From Candidatus Iainarchaeum sp. (lineage in GTDB: Archaea; Iainarchaeota; Iainarchaeia; JAGGVJ01), in the NCBI GenBank assembly GCA_021158055.1, contig JAGGVJ010000033.1:1-43198 (forward strand): 43,198 nt of DNA. The letters run 5' to 3'. Shown here piece after piece: positions 24,638-43,198 of this stretch. The notes under the pieces were generated by a model. It was not told where the DNA came from. It ran no database searches and saw nothing but the letters and a program-made list of their open reading frames with translations. A program made the translations under genes and the position numbers. Within the stretch, counting starts at the first letter, position 1, and every line of letters starts with the position of its first letter.

Positions 24638-26029
24638 TTAAATCTTTAAAGGAACTTCTTCAAGTGCTTTTTCAAGCTTTTTTATCAGTGACTTCTTTGA
24701 TTTGCTGTCAGACAACACCGCTTCAAGCACTTCCAAAATGGTTTCCGCAGGCACTATCCTGATTTGCTTTTTTTGCCTGTCGTCAAGGACAACGTCCCCG
24801 AGATTGGATTTAGGTATCACGACCGTTTTTATCCCGGCTCCAAGAGCAGCCAATATCTTCATCGTGACCCCGCCGACAGGAAGCACGTCGCCCCTCACCG
24901 AAAGAGAACCGGTCATCGCAATCGATTGATTTACCGGAACACCAGTCATCGCGGAAAGAAGAGCAGTGGCAACTGACACGCTTGCAGAATCACCTTCAAC
25001 ACCCTCGTAGGTCTGGAGGAACTGCACGTGAATATCAAACTGGGAAATATCCTTGCCGGAAACAAGCTTCAAAAGAGCACTGACGTTTTGAACCGCCTCG
25101 TTCGCAATATCCCCGAGCTTTCCCGTGGCAATAACTTTTCCCTCGCGCTGGCTTTGAGCCGGGGCCACTTCAGACACAATCGGAAGCACTATCCCCCCGC
25201 CTTCCCTACCAATCACTGCCAAGCCGTTGACGCGGCCGACTTCCATGCCCTTAATCTTGAACACCTCATAATCTTTCTTGACGCTGATATACTTATCCGA
25301 AACCTGTTGTTCAAGCGTCTTTGCAAGCTTCATGGCTTCCTTGACGTGTCTGACATGCACAAGTTTCTTTGACTTATCCTCTTTCGCCAAGTCCCCCGCG
25401 GCCCTCACAAGACCTCCCAGGTCACGCAGCTTTAAAGTAAGCTTTCCTTTTCTTCCTGCGCGAATTCTTGCAACCCTCACAACCTCGTCAACGGCGCTCT
25501 TGCTGAAGTGAGGTATTTTCCCGTCCTTTTTGACTTCCTGCGCAATAAACTGCGCAATAAAAAACCTGTTTTCGGGAGTGTCTGCAAGGTCATTGTTCAT
25601 GAAAATCTCGTAACCGTAACCGCGGATTCTCGAGCGAAGAGCAGGGTGCATGCTTTTCAGGTCTTCCATGTTTCCAGCCGCAACCAAAACAAAATCACAT
25701 GGAACCGCTTCGGTGCGAACCATTGCCCCGCTTGACATCTCGCTTTGACCTGTAATGGAATATTTTTTCTCCTGCAGCGCAGTCAAAAGCTCCTGCTGGG
25801 CCTTTGGAGACAAAGCAGCCATCTCGTCAATAAACAACACTCCCTTGTTTGACTTGTGAATCATTCCCGGCTCAACCCTTGCGTGAGCAGGAGTTCCAAG
25901 TCCGCCTGAATTTGAAACTGCCACTTCCCGGGAAAAAAGGTTTCCTGTTGAAGTCGTGGCATTGTACACAAAACCGTTTTTTACTTCTTTGACTTTCTTT
26001 CCAGTGATCTCTGACTCAACCGGTTTCAT
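24638..26029 (-). CDS. lonB: LonB C-terminal half with N-terminal C-intein
   Basis: 463 residues. The first 40 read as a C-intein: block F-like [14 protein letters not shown] and an end VAVSN before Ser41, which starts the extein [15 protein letters not shown]. Then come Walker B (VLFIDE, 64-69), the rest of the AAA+ module ([11 protein letters not shown]), and the Lon protease domain with the catalytic pair Ser348 (GVEGDSAS) and Lys391 (GGVTMK), 43 residues apart as in archaeal LonB. It has no Walker A and no membrane segment, so alone it cannot be a working ATP-dependent protease. ATG 26029 overlaps the upstream stop (ATGA) and has GGTGG four bases away, the same layout as tldE. Alternative: one frame with the upstream gene, broken by an indel in G6. 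Confidence 0.93.
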
Positions 26030-26559
26030 ATGCCACCGCCCCCCGCCTTCAAAACAGCATCGTTTGCCTGATTTGATTTTCCCTGAGATAAAAACAATGC
26101 CCTTAACCTTTCAAGCTGTTCTTCAAACAAACCCGCAAACCCGGCAGGCGCAGAAAACACCTTTGTCCCGACCACAGCATCTTTTGCCAAAACGCGTCCC
26201 TGCGGAGTCAAAATTTCGTGCTCGCAAGTGACTGAAACGGTTTTTCCTGAATCTGTCTTCAGGCAGACTATCTCCCCGGAAAAAGGCCGCCTGTTAATCA
26301 CTTCCACTCTTGCAAGCTCCATTTCCCCTGAACCACTCAATCCGACAGTGTATATTTTTTCATCTTCCGGGCCCGAAGGCAACACAATTGCCTCGTAGCC
26401 ATCAGGGTTTTTTTCAATCAAACCTGAGTATTTTTTTGAGAGCATCTCCCAGGCTTCTTCAAAAGAAACTTCCACAAGCGCGTTTTCAAAATTCGTTGAA
26501 ATGCCTGCAAAATTTTCTTTTCCAAGGCTCATATAAAAAGTGTTTTCCCCTGAAAAACT
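25910..26559 (-). other. Mini-intein in LonB, apparently naturally split
   Basis: N-intein codons 26559-26029 (177 residues, starting Ser) and C-intein codons 26029-25910 (40 residues, ending Asn) lie in adjacent overlapping genes. The exact insertion point is between FQ and SGGLG of the conserved LonB motif, a known intein position in archaeal Lon. Splicing blocks A, B, F and G can all be placed, and the endonuclease domain is absent. The first residue is Ser, not the commoner Cys; the block F His and the penultimate His of block G are replaced by Gly and Ser. Extein continuity across the junction is the strongest evidence that this is an intein rather than an unrelated insertion. Confidence 0.85.
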
Positions 26560-27195
26560 CTGGAACGGGTCGTGGCGGACGTCCCCGAGAAGCGCTCCTG
26601 ACTTGGCGCCGGTCGCTTCAATGAACGGGGCAGTTTTCTGGGTTGCATTGTCAACAAGCAGTTTTGGCGCACCGCCTTCTCCCGCTGCACCCCCCCGCAT
26701 ACTCATGCCCATTACAGTAACTGCTGAAAAAAGCGCGCCGACTATCAAAAACGCGGCGGCGATTATCTCTGTTATCCAGCCGAAACTAAGAGCAATCATC
26801 GGCAACATGATTGCGGCAATCAATATCACAAAACCCAAAAGGCGCTGGTTGCTCATCGCTGACGCCGCAGTAAGTCGTTCTTTTTCAACAATCTTCTTAC
26901 CTTCCCCTGCCTTGACTGTCCTTACCTTTGGGTTGTTGTCAAACTCCGGGTTCGGGTAACACAACACATCCTGAAGTTCGCTCAAAGGCATGAGTTCTGC
27001 CATGGCCTGGGCGATCATGGATTTTCCGGTTCCCGGCTCTCCGATAAGCAAAACGTTTCTTCGCTGCGCTGCAGCTTTTTCAATAATATAAGATGCCTCT
27101 GTCTGGCCTATGACCTGGCCAATCAACTTTTTCGGAATCGAAATGTCTTTTGTGGACCTGAACTTTTTGCTGTATTTTTCAACCATAAAACTCAC
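26026..27195 (-). CDS. lonB: LonB N-terminal half with C-terminal N-intein
   Basis: 389 residues. Walker A is GEPGTGKS (52-59). Two membrane helices follow at about 119-162, typical of membrane-anchored archaeal LonB, then [13 protein letters not shown] up to residue 212. In intact LonB the next residues are SGGLGTPAH. Here Ser213 starts an intein: block [10 protein letters not shown], block B-like [17 protein letters not shown] (Thr323, His326) preceded by [13 protein letters not shown], then a helical stretch ending AGGGGI and a stop. No homing endonuclease is present. GTG 27195 follows AGGAG; ATG 27186 is possible. The downstream gene holds the C-intein and the rest of LonB. Splicing in trans would join Gln212 to Ser41 of that protein. 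Confidence 0.93.
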
Positions 27196-35710: not shown

Positions 35711-35758
35711 AATATAACCATCCGTATAATACTGTGATTATAATACTGTAATTATTAT

Positions 35759-35839
35759 CCACCCATAATAATTATCCACCCATAATAATTATCCATCCAT
35801 AATAATTATCCATCCATAATAATTATCCACCCATAAAAC
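35759..35839. repeat. 17-bp tandem repeats upstream of the GH13-like gene
   Basis: Units start at 35759, 35776, 35793, 35810 and 35827 (the last partial); the variants are CCACCC or CCATCC followed by ATAATAATTAT. On the minus strand each reads ATTATTATGGATGGAT-like, close to the actual gene start region (TATATTATGGATAG) at 35710. They fill the spacer between the broken racemase gene and the operon start. Confidence 0.85.
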
Positions 35840-37178: not shown

Positions 37179-38135
37179 ATGAACGGAGCAAAAAGCGCAG
37201 TGGAAAAATGCCTTGCAATAAAAAAAGGTGAAGAAATACTCATAATCACAGATGAGAAAAAAATAAGGATAGCAACCCTTCTTGCAGACGAATGCATAAA
37301 AATCGGTGCGAAAGTAACAACTGTGTTCCTGCAGAAAACACAGCGACCGCTTACAGAAATCCCAAAATGCATTGAAAAAGCGGCAATTGCATGCGATGTC
37401 GCAATGACTCCATTTTCAAGCTTTCACGAAGAAGGGACATTTCGATTCAGGCTAATCAAACTGCTTGCGGAAAACAATGCACGGGTCGCGCACATGCCAA
37501 ACATCCCCTTGTCGGCAATTGAATCCGGGGCAATCGGAGCTGATTTCAAAGAGATAAAAAAAGCAAGTGAAAAAATCACTGAAAAACTCAAAGGCTCGGA
37601 TGAAATAACAATTGTTTCAGGAAAAAACAAAAAACTCACCTTTTCAATCAAAAACGCAAAAACACTAATTGACGACGGGAACCTCACAAAACCCGGAAAC
37701 TGGGGAAACCTTCCCGCAGGAGAAGCATTTTTAGTCCCTGTTCCTGAAACAGGCAACGGTGAATTTGAATGCAATGTCACCGCCGGCGGAATCGGAAAAA
37801 TAATGACCCCGATCACACTGGTTTTTGAAAACGGAAAGATTGTAAAAATAAACGGAAAAAGCAGTCAAGCAGACAAAATCAGAAACGCAATCAAAAACGC
37901 GACCGGGGGAAAAGACATCTTGTGCGAGTTCGGAATCGGCACAAACCCGTTTGCGAAACAATGCGGAAACACGCTCGTAGACGAAAAACTAATGGGCACC
38001 TGCCACATCGCAGTCGGGGAAAACACCGGGTTCGGGGGGAACAACAGCTCAAGCATACACATTGACTTTGTCACAAGCAACCCAAAATTTTTTTCAGGAG
38101 AAAAAGAACTTGACTTAAATGTGCAAAATGATTAA
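37179..38135 (+). CDS. M29-like leucyl aminopeptidase (COG2309-type)
   Basis: 318 residues. The N-terminal alpha/beta part (KGEEILIITDEKKIRIATLLADECIKIGAKVTTV) and the metal-binding C-terminal part are both present: GNLPAGEAFLVPVPETGNGEFEC, CEFGIGTNPFAK, LMGTCHIAVGENTGFGGNNSSSIHIDFV. The Glu and His ligands of M29-type aminopeptidases sit in these motifs. It is somewhat shorter than the usual 370-410 residues, mainly in the middle. Peptide recycling in the cytoplasm is likely. Start ATG 37179 follows GTGATC. AAAGTCATTTAA occurs twice in its upstream region. Confidence 0.85.
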   Translation: MNGAKSAVEKCLAIKKGEEILIITDEKKIRIATLLADECIKIGAKVTTVFLQKTQRPLTEIPKCIEKAAIACDVAMTPFSSFHEEGTFRFRLIKLLAENNARVAHMPNIPLSAIESGAIGADFKEIKKASEKITEKLKGSDEITIVSGKNKKLTFSIKNAKTLIDDGNLTKPGNWGNLPAGEAFLVPVPETGNGEFECNVTAGGIGKIMTPITLVFENGKIVKINGKSSQADKIRNAIKNATGGKDILCEFGIGTNPFAKQCGNTLVDEKLMGTCHIAVGENTGFGGNNSSSIHIDFVTSNPKFFSGEKELDLNVQND

Positions 38136-39554: not shown

Positions 39555-41003
39555 ATGGAATCAAACACAGCAAACATACCAAACACAACAGACCTATCAG
39601 CTCAAATACACGACCTGGTTCAAAAAACCGCGCAATACGCCCAAACCGGCCCGCAAATCACATACTGCGACGTGCGGGGCGTGATCGGAGAAAGCAACAC
39701 ACTTTCAATGAGCGACAGCGAAGGAAAAACCGATTCCACAAACGGAATCGGAATAGGGATTCGCGTGCTTGCAGACGGAGCGTGGGGATACACTTCTTCA
39801 ACGCAACTTGATGCGGCAAAACTCAAGGGGAAAGTAGACCAGGCACTCAAAATCGCGCTTGGATTATCACATGCGAAAAAAGACAAGGCGACTGTCCGGG
39901 AACTTGACCCGGTGATCAGAAGCCACAAAACAAAATACAAAATCAATCCCCTTGAAGTTGACATGAAAGAAAAACACGAAATACTGACTCACATGTTTGA
40001 CTGCTGCGAACACGAGGAAATAATCCACAATCAGGCGAGGATCAGCGCGGGACAAACAAGCAAATGGTTTGCAAACACAGAAGGAAGCCTCATTGAAACC
40101 CAGGCTACAAAAACCATAATCTCGCTTTCAGCAGTGTCGCACAGGGACGGGAAAACATCAATGAACTACGACGTCAAAGCCGGAATCGCCGGATTCGAAT
40201 TCATAAAAAACCTTGACATCGAAAAATTCGCAAAAGGAATATATACAAAAGCAGTGGATTTCCTCGACGCAAAACCGTTCAAAGGCGGTGCAATGGACGT
40301 TGTCCTGTCCCCCTCGGTCGGAGGCACCCTTGTCCACGAAGTATTCGGCCACGCAGCAGAAGCCGACTGGGTAACAAACGGAAGGTCCCTTCTCAAAGAC
40401 AAACTCAACACACCCATCGGAAGCGAAATGGTCACAATCTGCGACGACGGCTCAATGAGCAACTCATGGGGGAGCATTTACTTTGACGACGAAGGAATCC
40501 AAAACAAAAACCAGGTACTGGTTGAAAACGGAATGCTAAAAGGATACATGCACTCGCGCGAAACAGCCTGCAAAATGGGTGTCCCTGAAACCGGAAACGG
40601 GCGGGCGCAAGACTACAACCACAGAGTGATACCTCGGATGACAAACACATACCTCAAAAAAGGGGACTTTGAAGTTGATGAAATGATTGAAGGGATAAAA
40701 AACGGCATAATCGTCGACAAATACACCTGCGCCCTTGAAGACCCTGCGGGAGGAAGCTTTGAGCTCAAGACTCTCGGGGGATATGTCATAAAAAACGGAA
40801 AAACGGAAACGCCGATTGCAAGAACAACCCTTTCAAGCCCTTCATTCATAGACACATTCAACAATATTGACGCGCTCTCAAAAAACATGAGCAAAGACAA
40901 CATCGGGATGTGCGGGAAAGGACACGAGGACTGGGTGCCTGTCGGAAACCCGTCGCCGTTCATAAGGATACGGAACCTCATAGTCAACGGGGGTGATTCA
41001 TGA
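39555..41003 (+). CDS. tldD: TldD metalloprotease subunit
   Basis: 482 residues. It is the zinc-bearing partner of the TldD/TldE heterodimeric protease that degrades unfolded or modified peptides. The active motif HEVFGH is at residues 261-266 (HExxxH), within GGTLVHEVFGHAAEADW. Other family marks are GIGIRVLADGAWGYTSS near the N-terminus and the late GGSFELKTLGGYVIKNG and NGRAQDYNHRVIPRMTNTY. Its stop overlaps the tldE start, so the two are translationally coupled. No RiPP precursor or gyrase-toxin target is visible nearby, so a general peptide-turnover role is inferred. Confidence 0.96.
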   Translation: MESNTANIPNTTDLSAQIHDLVQKTAQYAQTGPQITYCDVRGVIGESNTLSMSDSEGKTDSTNGIGIGIRVLADGAWGYTSSTQLDAAKLKGKVDQALKIALGLSHAKKDKATVRELDPVIRSHKTKYKINPLEVDMKEKHEILTHMFDCCEHEEIIHNQARISAGQTSKWFANTEGSLIETQATKTIISLSAVSHRDGKTSMNYDVKAGIAGFEFIKNLDIEKFAKGIYTKAVDFLDAKPFKGGAMDVVLSPSVGGTLVHEVFGHAAEADWVTNGRSLLKDKLNTPIGSEMVTICDDGSMSNSWGSIYFDDEGIQNKNQVLVENGMLKGYMHSRETACKMGVPETGNGRAQDYNHRVIPRMTNTYLKKGDFEVDEMIEGIKNGIIVDKYTCALEDPAGGSFELKTLGGYVIKNGKTETPIARTTLSSPSFIDTFNNIDALSKNMSKDNIGMCGKGHEDWVPVGNPSPFIRIRNLIVNGGDS

Positions 41004-42346
41004 TGTTTGAAGAAATACTCAAAAGCGGGAACTGCGAAGTGTACTCAAGCAACGTCAGGGTTGCCGACGCAAACCTTGACAACGACGTCAACGCGTTAAG
41101 GTCAACAAACGAAAGCGGGTACTCAATCCGCGTTCTTGAAAACCTCAAAATAGGCAATGCATCTTCAAACGATTTTTCTGTTCAAAGCATCCGAAACACC
41201 CTTGAAACCGCAAAAAAACTAAGCGGTTTCGGAAAAGAAATCCCAAAAAACTTTTCATTTTGCGACACCGGCAAAAAATCAGACGCAAAACAAAACTTTG
41301 ACAACCTACTCTCAACACAACTCGACGAATGCTGCAGCAAGCTCGCGGAAATCACCCTGCAGAAAGCAAGCGATCAAAACGTGAAAATCACGAACTGTTC
41401 CATCAAAACAATTCAAGTGGACTTTCGCGTGCAAAACAGCCTTGGAATCGACAAGCAGGAAAAAGGAACCTTCGTGGTTGCGGCAATCGACTCAAAAGCA
41501 AACACAAACAAACCCTTGGCAGAACTTTCATCAACGTTTTCCTCAAGAATTCTTGACGAAAAAGAATACGAAAAATGGGTTTCTGAAAGGTTTGAGCTCA
41601 CAAAACTGTTTGTTGAGCCGAAAAAAATTGAATCCGGAAAATACCCGCTTTTGATTGAACCTGGAGTGTTCTCGCCGCTTATCGCAGACACTGTCGGGTA
41701 CTGGGCAAGCGGAAAATCACGCGTTGACAAAATAAGCTTTTTTGAAGGCAAAAAAAACCAGCAGGTATTCTCGGAAAAACTGTCAATCACAGACGACGCA
41801 CTGTTTGAGAACGCCCCTTCCACAAGCTCGATTGACATGGAAGGAAACCCCACGAGGCAAACTGAAATCATAAAAAACGGAACTTTCAATTCTTTTTTCT
41901 ATGACCAGCTTTACGCAAGCTACTTTGACGAACAGGCAACAGGAAACGCAAAAAAGCAATCCGGAATGGGCGGGGAAAAAATTTATTCAAGCTCCACATT
42001 TTGCGGCTCAAACAACCTCGTGGTTGAACGCGGAAGTCACTCAATTGAAGAACTAAAGCAGGACTTTGAAGGAATAATCATTGAAGGCGCGGGTCTTCCG
42101 ATGGCTGACAGCGAAACAGGAGAATTCGGGTTTGAAATCCGAAACGGCCTGCTTTCAAAAAACAAAGAACTTACCCCCGTGCGCTACGGGATATTTGCAG
42201 GAAACGTCAAGGCAATACTCAACCAAATCAGCGCGTTTTCAAAAGAAAGAGACACCGTTCCAGACGAACGCACGGCTGAATTCAACAGTTCCTGCGTGTG
42301 CCCGTGGGCAAAACTTGAAAACCAGACAATTGTCGGCGGGAAATAA
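41000..42346 (+). CDS. tldE: TldE/PmbA protease subunit
   Basis: 448 residues. It is the non-metal partner of TldD. It lacks an HExxxH and has the family's GYSIRVLENLKIGNASSND, LIEPGVFSPLIADTVGYW, TSSIDMEGNPTRQTEIIKNG, and a long C-terminal beta region ending near CVCPWAKLENQTIVGG. ATG 41000 (ATGATG, so 41003 is possible) overlaps the tldD stop and has GGTGATTC upstream. Its end is 12 bases from the convergent unknown gene. The pair is intact, unlike many genes just upstream. Confidence 0.95.
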   Translation: MMFEEILKSGNCEVYSSNVRVADANLDNDVNALRSTNESGYSIRVLENLKIGNASSNDFSVQSIRNTLETAKKLSGFGKEIPKNFSFCDTGKKSDAKQNFDNLLSTQLDECCSKLAEITLQKASDQNVKITNCSIKTIQVDFRVQNSLGIDKQEKGTFVVAAIDSKANTNKPLAELSSTFSSRILDEKEYEKWVSERFELTKLFVEPKKIESGKYPLLIEPGVFSPLIADTVGYWASGKSRVDKISFFEGKKNQQVFSEKLSITDDALFENAPSTSSIDMEGNPTRQTEIIKNGTFNSFFYDQLYASYFDEQATGNAKKQSGMGGEKIYSSSTFCGSNNLVVERGSHSIEELKQDFEGIIIEGAGLPMADSETGEFGFEIRNGLLSKNKELTPVRYGIFAGNVKAILNQISAFSKERDTVPDERTAEFNSSCVCPWAKLENQTIVGGK

Positions 42347-42358
42347 AAACAAAAAGAA

Positions 42359-43057
42359 CTACTTCTTGGCAGGTTTTTCTGCCCCTTCTTTGTTTTTCTG
42401 TTCAGCGGCAGGTTTTTTTTCCTTTCCCTTGTTTTTCTGTCCGGCGACAGGCCTGCTTTTCCTGCCGGAGTTTTTTGACTCAAACTCCTTTTTGAAACCA
42501 AGCAATTCTTTTTTCGCGCGTTCGCGAAGACTCAAGCTGCTTGCGCAGATTTCAAAAAAAAGATCCTCAAAAGCAAAAAGGGACTTGAAAACCGGCTCGT
42601 ACTGGAGGGGATTTTCCACCTGAAACTCCTCCAAAACACCTTGTTTTGAAACACGCCCTTTGGAAATTATTGCCTGGTGAACCTGTTTATTGTCTTTCGG
42701 GTTATAAACTGCACTTAAAATGTCACCTGCTGTTTTTCCTTTTGCAAGCTCGTCCTGCGACAGCTTAAAAAAAAGAACCCGAATCACATCATCTTCCCCG
42801 CCGCGAAAATAATAAGCAACCTGACCAAGGCCCCTGAAAGAAACCTTTGTTTTGTGTTGGGGGTCCTCAAAAAAATTCACCAAAGAACCTAAAAGAACTG
42901 TTATCTGCCTGCGGCCTGCTTCATCCAGATCAAAAACTTTCGGAATCAGCTTTTTGAACGACGGGTCGTCAGTAAAATACTTCTTGTCTTTGCTGATGTG
43001 AAGAACTTCTTTTGGCTGCTTACTGCCAAAAAACCTGTTAAAAAATTTGAATGCCAT
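42359..43057 (-). CDS. Unrecognised protein with a low-complexity basic tail
   Basis: About 232 residues from ATG 43057 (MAFKFFNRFFGSKQP); the longer frame reaching 43117 starts inside a tandem repeat and is less likely. The first ~170 residues look like a folded, mostly helical domain (FDLDEAGRRQITVLLGSLVNFFED, VAYYFRGGEDDVIRVLFFKLSQDEL). The end is an Ala/Lys-rich tail with repeats of KKPAAEQKNK and PVAGQKNK type, probably disordered. No signal peptide, membrane helix or catalytic motif is seen. The Lys-rich tail may bind nucleic acid or another acidic partner; this is a guess. Confidence 0.7.
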   Translation of the reverse strand: MAFKFFNRFFGSKQPKEVLHISKDKKYFTDDPSFKKLIPKVFDLDEAGRRQITVLLGSLVNFFEDPQHKTKVSFRGLGQVAYYFRGGEDDVIRVLFFKLSQDELAKGKTAGDILSAVYNPKDNKQVHQAIISKGRVSKQGVLEEFQVENPLQYEPVFKSLFAFEDLFFEICASSLSLRERAKKELLGFKKEFESKNSGRKSRPVAGQKNKGKEKKPAAEQKNKEGAEKPAKK

Positions 43058-43078: not shown

Positions 43079-43090
43079 GTATATATTTTT
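43079..43090 (-). promoter_or_regulatory. TATA box for the last gene
   Basis: AAAAATATATAC on the minus strand is centred 27 bases before ATG 43057. That supports leaderless transcription and the choice of the shorter protein. The same element recurs in each 35-bp repeat behind it. Confidence 0.55.
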
Positions 43091-43198
43091 GACTGGTTCC
43101 GGATCTTGATTGATCATATATTTTTGACTGGTTCCGGATCTTGATTGATCATATATTTTTGACTGGTTCCGGATCTTGATTGATCATATATTTTTGAC
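43081..43198. repeat. Perfect 35-bp tandem repeat at the window edge
   Basis: Units at 43081-43115, 43116-43150 and 43151-43185 are identical, and a fourth is cut at 43198. Each carries ATATATTTTTGAC, the minus-strand TATA element of the adjacent gene. The array may be a multiplied core promoter, or an assembly effect at a contig end. Confidence 0.9.

Follow-up and report, generated by a model that had tools for sequence, protein, structure and literature searches.

A perfect 35-bp tandem array with a promoter-like element, one of a genome-wide set of unrelated perfect repeats in an archaeal genome

The right-hand end of an archaeal contig is made up of a 35-bp stretch repeated head to tail, and every copy carries a TATA-like element that faces a neighboring orphan gene. 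This arrangement raises the question of whether a core promoter has been multiplied for the sake of that gene, or whether a promoter-like element was swept along when a piece of intergenic DNA expanded. We examined the full 43,198 nucleotides of this stretch (the window), which is contig JAGGVJ010000033.1, called C45 here, one of 45 contigs in a 1.147-Mb archaeal genome (assembly GCA_021158055.1) that is 95% complete. The individual array is most likely a by-product of repeat formation throughout this genome, and the finding is of greatest interest as a member of a genome-wide set.

The array, its promoter-like element and the orphan gene

The features of the window that bear on this question are the following.

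43081..43198, minus strand: perfect 35-bp tandem array, 3.4 copies (TRF, and unit match at the tip of contig C27)
43080..43093, minus strand: gene-proximal BRE/TATA-like element GTCAAAAATATATA, equal to the final partial unit copy plus one base
42359..43057, minus strand: orphan gene, 232 aa from ATG 43057, with a lysine-rich C-terminal tail
39555..42346, plus strand: TldD/PmbA-type metallopeptidase pair, adjoining the orphan gene
37179..38135: M29-type gene, part of a peptidase-rich neighborhood
35749..35836, no strand assigned: imperfect intergenic array, 17 bp x 5.2, 95% matches

With 100% matches, no indels and a score of 236, the 35-bp array ranks first among the 22 TRF rows for the window. 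It fills the final 118 bases and is open at the contig end. Read on the strand of the orphan gene, the unit is GTCAAAAATATATGATCAATCAAGATCCGGAACCA. The sequence-only reading had described perfect 35-bp repeats in which the TATA element recurs four times or more, and this description holds: the TATA-bearing 13-mer ATATATTTTTGAC occurs at 43081, 43116, 43151 and 43186, and three of the 35-bp units are complete.

The orphan gene has no match in Pfam or NCBIfam. In the phylum set, just two of the 86 other genomes yield homologues, both partial and weak (E values of 1e-4 and 0.0016). Its frame remains open back to ATG 43117 within the array, which would lengthen the product by 20 residues to 252 aa. 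The coding region for its lysine-rich tail holds an imperfect repeat of its own (39 bp x 2.2, 80%, window positions 42368-42451).

Each unit also runs from an ATG to a TGA (MINQDPEPVKNI); stop and following start share bases as ATGA, and the array could be viewed as a chain of coupled 12-codon micro-genes. The ORF is unbroken in every full unit, and the last one stays open into the orphan gene. However, of 20,000 35-mers shuffled at constant composition and then repeated, 11% yield a coupled ORF on one strand, and the units lack a Shine-Dalgarno motif and place the start codon within the TATA-like stretch. Coupled micro-ORFs were rejected as too frequent by chance, and there is next to no likelihood that they account for the array.

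The sequence-only reading gave a fair description of the TATA element and proposed that it fits leaderless transcription from ATG 43057, a geometry that our analysis bears out. TATATA occupies positions -28 to -23, and no Shine-Dalgarno motif of the GGTG/GAGG type is present. When a BRE/TATA-like element near -28 is sought together with absence of a Shine-Dalgarno motif, only the gene-proximal copy, which stops 23 bp short of the ATG, has the layout of a leaderless core promoter. The upstream ATATAT copies lie at -39 relative to the in-array ATG that follows, compared with -29 of ATG 43057 for the gene-proximal copy, and this spacing, set by the 35-bp period, means that they are not placed for leaderless starts. 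They would be expected to give leadered transcripts, for which the in-frame ATG 43117 may serve as the start codon.

To judge from 292 sampled genes, a TATA-like hexamer is found at -34 to -22 upstream of 29 of the 168 genes that lack a Shine-Dalgarno-like motif versus 7 of the 124 that have one, and neighboring windows upstream of the former contain such a hexamer in 14 to 16 of 168 cases. This modest signal makes a leaderless minority of genes in the genome plausible. A promoter matrix trained on the genes without a Shine-Dalgarno motif assigns 5.1 bits to the TATA stretch of the repeated copies; the gene-proximal copy receives 4.7 bits, the genes of the training class have a median of 3.9 bits, and the 99th percentile of the genomic background is 5.2 bits. 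Since a stretch of the unit without TATA, GGAACCAGTCAAAA, also reaches 5.1 bits with this weak matrix, its scores argue only weakly for a promoter. Hits from a sigma-70 scan within the array are irrelevant, the host being an archaeon.

Bacterial VNTRs or minisatellites and promoter contingency loci have repeats in or beside promoters, and the number of repeats can alter expression. The known promoter contingency cases mostly involve short units between or beside the promoter hexamers, whereas the 35-bp unit described here holds an entire BRE/TATA-like element. The extra copies could have been selected as a multi-copy promoter, in which BRE/TATA elements would offer additional sites of initiation or sequester TBP/TFB, and changes in copy number would adjust expression of the orphan gene in the manner of a contingency locus. 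The closeness of the array to the orphan ATG and the higher matrix score of the repeated copies speak for this idea, while the mis-spacing of the upstream copies for leaderless starts and the equal score of the non-TATA stretch speak against it. Further evidence on both sides comes from the other arrays of the genome (see below). The gene-proximal copy is probably the working promoter, to which the additional copies would contribute a modest effect at most, and the number of copies may influence the orphan gene.

The contig break and the matching tip on C27

The sequence-only reading had also regarded a contig end within a tandem repeat as typical of assembly failure, and a break of this kind is supported by the recurrence of the unit at a second contig end. 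A search of the genome for an 18-base core taken from the unit, allowing up to 3 mismatches, gave one further site, the right tip of contig C27 (24269-24371, 103 bp), and beyond that no more than a single 3-mismatch match on C16. Exact searches with the unit in a genome-contig and a viral-contig collection gave 0 matches each; these collections may omit the present genome.

The C27 array begins 29 bp past the stop codon of an M29-type peptidase gene, and its flank differs from that of the array on C45. Orientation and phase are compatible with the order C27(+), array, C45(-), and a join could be made with array lengths of 118, 153, 188 bp and so on. These features suggest that C27 and C45 are adjacent in the chromosome. 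The surrounding genes fit such a neighborhood, since peptidase genes of the M29, M24 and TldD/PmbA types are abundant on both flanks: the TldD/PmbA pair and an M29-type gene lie on the C45 side of the gap, and M29 and M24 genes lie at the end of C27. Elsewhere in the window, positions 24638-27195 hold an ORF for an archaeal LonB-like protease with AAA and proteolytic domains. The ORF adjoining it gives a partial AAA/Mg-chelatase-type match, and could be part of a split gene or encode a separate AAA protein.

A contig that terminates within a repeat might owe its extra copies to a loop in the assembly graph, and further contigs of this genome terminate likewise. However, two contigs carry the array with distinct flanks, and seven other arrays are resolved within sampled stretches of the genome. 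Moreover, contig ends overlap exactly over 127 bp in ten pairs, a length that points to 127 as the final k. One 127-mer has room for the 118-bp array and nine flanking bases, and at least 3.4 copies were therefore probably present in single reads. We consider it very unlikely that the copies were invented during assembly. We also considered whether the breaks between contigs mark two alleles of different length, but discarded this model since it predicts another end point for the C27 tip.

A genome-wide set of perfect arrays

The own sample comprised 412,698 bp, made up of the window, 20 kb of C27 and 20 interior stretches. Under a strict definition (perfect, at least 50 nt and at least 3 units), 8 arrays are present in this sample, including the array of the window. 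Internal arrays lie, for example, in sampled stretches L003 (17332-17415), L100 (12509-12582) and L113 (87-190). Contig tips were surveyed separately. There are 90 in total, of which 4 are masked and 86 readable, and the minimum was set at 2.9 units, which admits the 103-bp array of C27. Perfect arrays of at least 50 nt were found at 13 of the 86 readable tips, or at 12 of 86 if at least 3 units are demanded. Seven distinct tip units were identified (17, 17, 19, 21, 22, 24 and 35 bp), six of which occur on exactly two tips each. In the C36/C23 pair the units vary slightly and the overlap is not exact. The seventh, a 19-bp unit at the right tip of C43 (L098:1386-1500), stands alone among the 86 readable tips, and the contig next to it may be missing or masked. 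Extrapolation from 7 arrays per 412,698 bp of interior sequence and 7 at gaps gives an estimate of about 26 strict arrays for the whole genome.

Together, interior stretches and tips yield 14 distinct perfect units of 17-35 bp in the sampled 47% of the genome. The longest word common to any two of these units, on either strand, is 8 nt. This lack of relationship bears on the possibility that the array binds a protein or serves replication, like iterons or a centromere, or that it encodes a structured RNA. Perfect direct repeats at even spacing, confined to the C27 and C45 tips apart from the C16 match, would suit a binding or replication array, but the units of the other arrays are unrelated. 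A structured RNA is countered by the absence of any Rfam match at the gathering threshold in the window and by predicted folding that is no better than that of shuffled sequences (z = -0.31). The probability of any such function for this array seems to us extremely low.

The same set of units also bears on the multi-copy promoter. Six TATA-like hexamers were tried, and only 2 of the 14 units contain one. The second TATATA-bearing array (sampled stretch L003, 17332-17415) lies between two divergent genes, which speaks for a promoter role. However, the remaining 12 units contain none of the six hexamers, and genes themselves harbor at least two of the arrays. Promoter multiplication thus fails to explain the class of arrays. 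Together with the unsuitable spacing of the upstream copies, this result leaves unsupported the view of the sequence-only reading that multiplication of a core promoter is the point of the array. A promoter-like element does occur in the unit, but selection for promoter function explains the repeats less well than expansion across the genome does, and we regard it as unlikely.

A looser set (at least 40 nt and at least 2 units) was compiled to 32 rows from the genome, in which the C27/C45 array and one array of the window are counted twice; merging these leaves 30. Intergenic positions account for 17 of the 32 rows, compared with 12% of the sequence that is non-coding (p = 2e-8); in the merged set the figures are 15 of 30 and p = 4e-7. 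The remaining 15 rows fall within ORFs of at least 100 aa as delineated by a simple ORF caller. The period is divisible by three in 10 of these 15 in-ORF rows versus 4 of the 17 intergenic rows (p = 0.03; merged p = 0.066), a weak link between unit length and reading frame. The five in-ORF rows with other periods may represent false ORFs.

Two of the coding examples are clear, both with periods divisible by three. The gene for ribosomal protein S6e (L108:6397-7116, minus strand, contig C20) carries two 24-bp arrays behind the S6e domain, a perfect one of 3.7 copies and another of 2.5 copies, which encode a repetitive tail. An ORF of 2765 aa (L115:9373-17670, minus strand, contig C36) contains perfect 18-bp arrays encoding YDSHYD/YDSHND repeats, and its product appears to be a surface-type protein.

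Relatives, Borg repeats and a possible origin

For comparison we searched 653,387 usable bases from 21 genomes that are kin at the level of class only; four further sampled genomes yielded nothing but masked sequence. No strict array (at least 50 nt, at least 3 units, period 9-150) is present in these 653,387 bases, and the difference from the present genome is significant even if the array of the window is left out (p = 0.0013). Given that no comparable perfect repeat is found in the usable sequence of the class relatives, chance is not a credible source of the array. At thresholds of at least 36 nt and 3 units, there are 8 arrays in the own sample versus 1 in the relatives, and at thresholds of at least 40 nt and 2 units there are 32 versus 5 (merged, 30 versus 5; p = 1e-8). 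Once 8 masked tips are removed, none of the 26 usable tips of the relatives carries an array, compared with 13 of 86 here (Fisher p = 0.037; p = 0.065 with the strict count of 12 of 86). Among 80 other archaeal contigs, 585 kb of sequence around rpoB-type genes contains a single array, a 9-bp AT-rich repeat.

The phylum set used in the searches consists of 87 genomes of one class. In an RpoB tree that took in 29 of the 80 fetched loci, the present genome falls on a long branch beside two Micrarchaeota sequences (support 93/95) and outside the class starred in the tree, and we read it as a DPANN-type archaeon. Its housekeeping genes include rpoB and a single PolB gene, both on C36, and S6e on C20; archaeal LonB and DUF373 are encoded in the window. 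With such genes in the same genome, the arrays are assigned to a cellular chromosome. Loss of mismatch repair was considered as a cause and rejected. This genome has NucS, as do 16 of 29 relatives, and lacks MutS, as do 28 of 29, so neither protein distinguishes it.

The closest parallel we found is with the tandem repeats (TRs) of Borgs. In Schoelmerich et al. 2023 (PMC9879509), TRs are defined by perfect units in at least 3 copies over at least 50 nt, and the 35-bp array (118 bp, 3.4 copies, no mismatch) has these properties. According to that paper, pervasive perfect TRs are striking in Borgs and virtually absent from their Methanoperedens hosts, whose drafts hold only 1-4 TR regions, whereas Borgs carry 20-76 per element of 0.62-1.09 Mb, or 0.29-1.02% of the sequence. 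The extrapolated figure for the present genome, about 26 per 1.15 Mb, is comparable. As in the Borg TRs described there, units are perfect, arranged head to tail, nearly all unique per genome, and scattered over intergenic regions and ORFs (14 units in the sampled 47%; 17 intergenic and 15 in-ORF rows in the loose set). Partial copies at the edges, trouble with short-read assembly and amino-acid repeats arising from some ORF repeats are further points of likeness. The same source states that every in-ORF period in Borgs is divisible by three, in contrast to 10 of 15 here, a count from the loose set and a simple ORF caller.

The arrays described here are nevertheless not Borg repeats despite this shared anatomy. 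Borg TRs reside on a linear element of Methanoperedens, whereas the present arrays are chromosomal, in a cellular archaeon whose genome also encodes rpoB, S6e and PolB. Our search of the open-licence literature found no report of such repeats in DPANN genomes.

Taken with the genome-wide set, these comparisons favor an origin in which perfect tandem repeats form and expand across the chromosome, probably recently. The 35-bp array would then be an intergenic minisatellite, one of the many perfect and unrelated repeats of this genome, that arose by replication slippage or unequal recombination, and we consider this account likely to be correct. The perfection of the array is what points to recent formation. 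It would have expanded between the M29-type peptidase gene of C27, 29 bp away, and the co-directional orphan gene, from an intergenic stretch that held a promoter-like element by happenstance. The array takes in the upstream half of the presumed promoter of the orphan gene, so a BRE/TATA-like stretch is found in every copy, and the leaderless spacing is kept by the gene-adjacent copy alone.

A broader proposal is that Borg-style repeat formation operates genome-wide on a DPANN-type chromosome, and that the arrays, the 35-bp promoter array among them, are fast-changing sites of regulation and protein tuning. We put this forward tentatively, as a possibility that we do not favor. If true, repeat formation of this style, which would touch promoters, intergenic DNA, S6e and a giant surface-type protein, would not be peculiar to Borgs. 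A similar signature on the small chromosome of a cellular archaeon, unseen in the samples of 21 class relatives, would constitute a second independent case, through which the origin of such repeats and the effect of promoter copy number on expression could be addressed. Arrays of this kind can also explain much of the gaps in draft genomes, as the 13 of 86 readable contig tips that carry them here illustrate.
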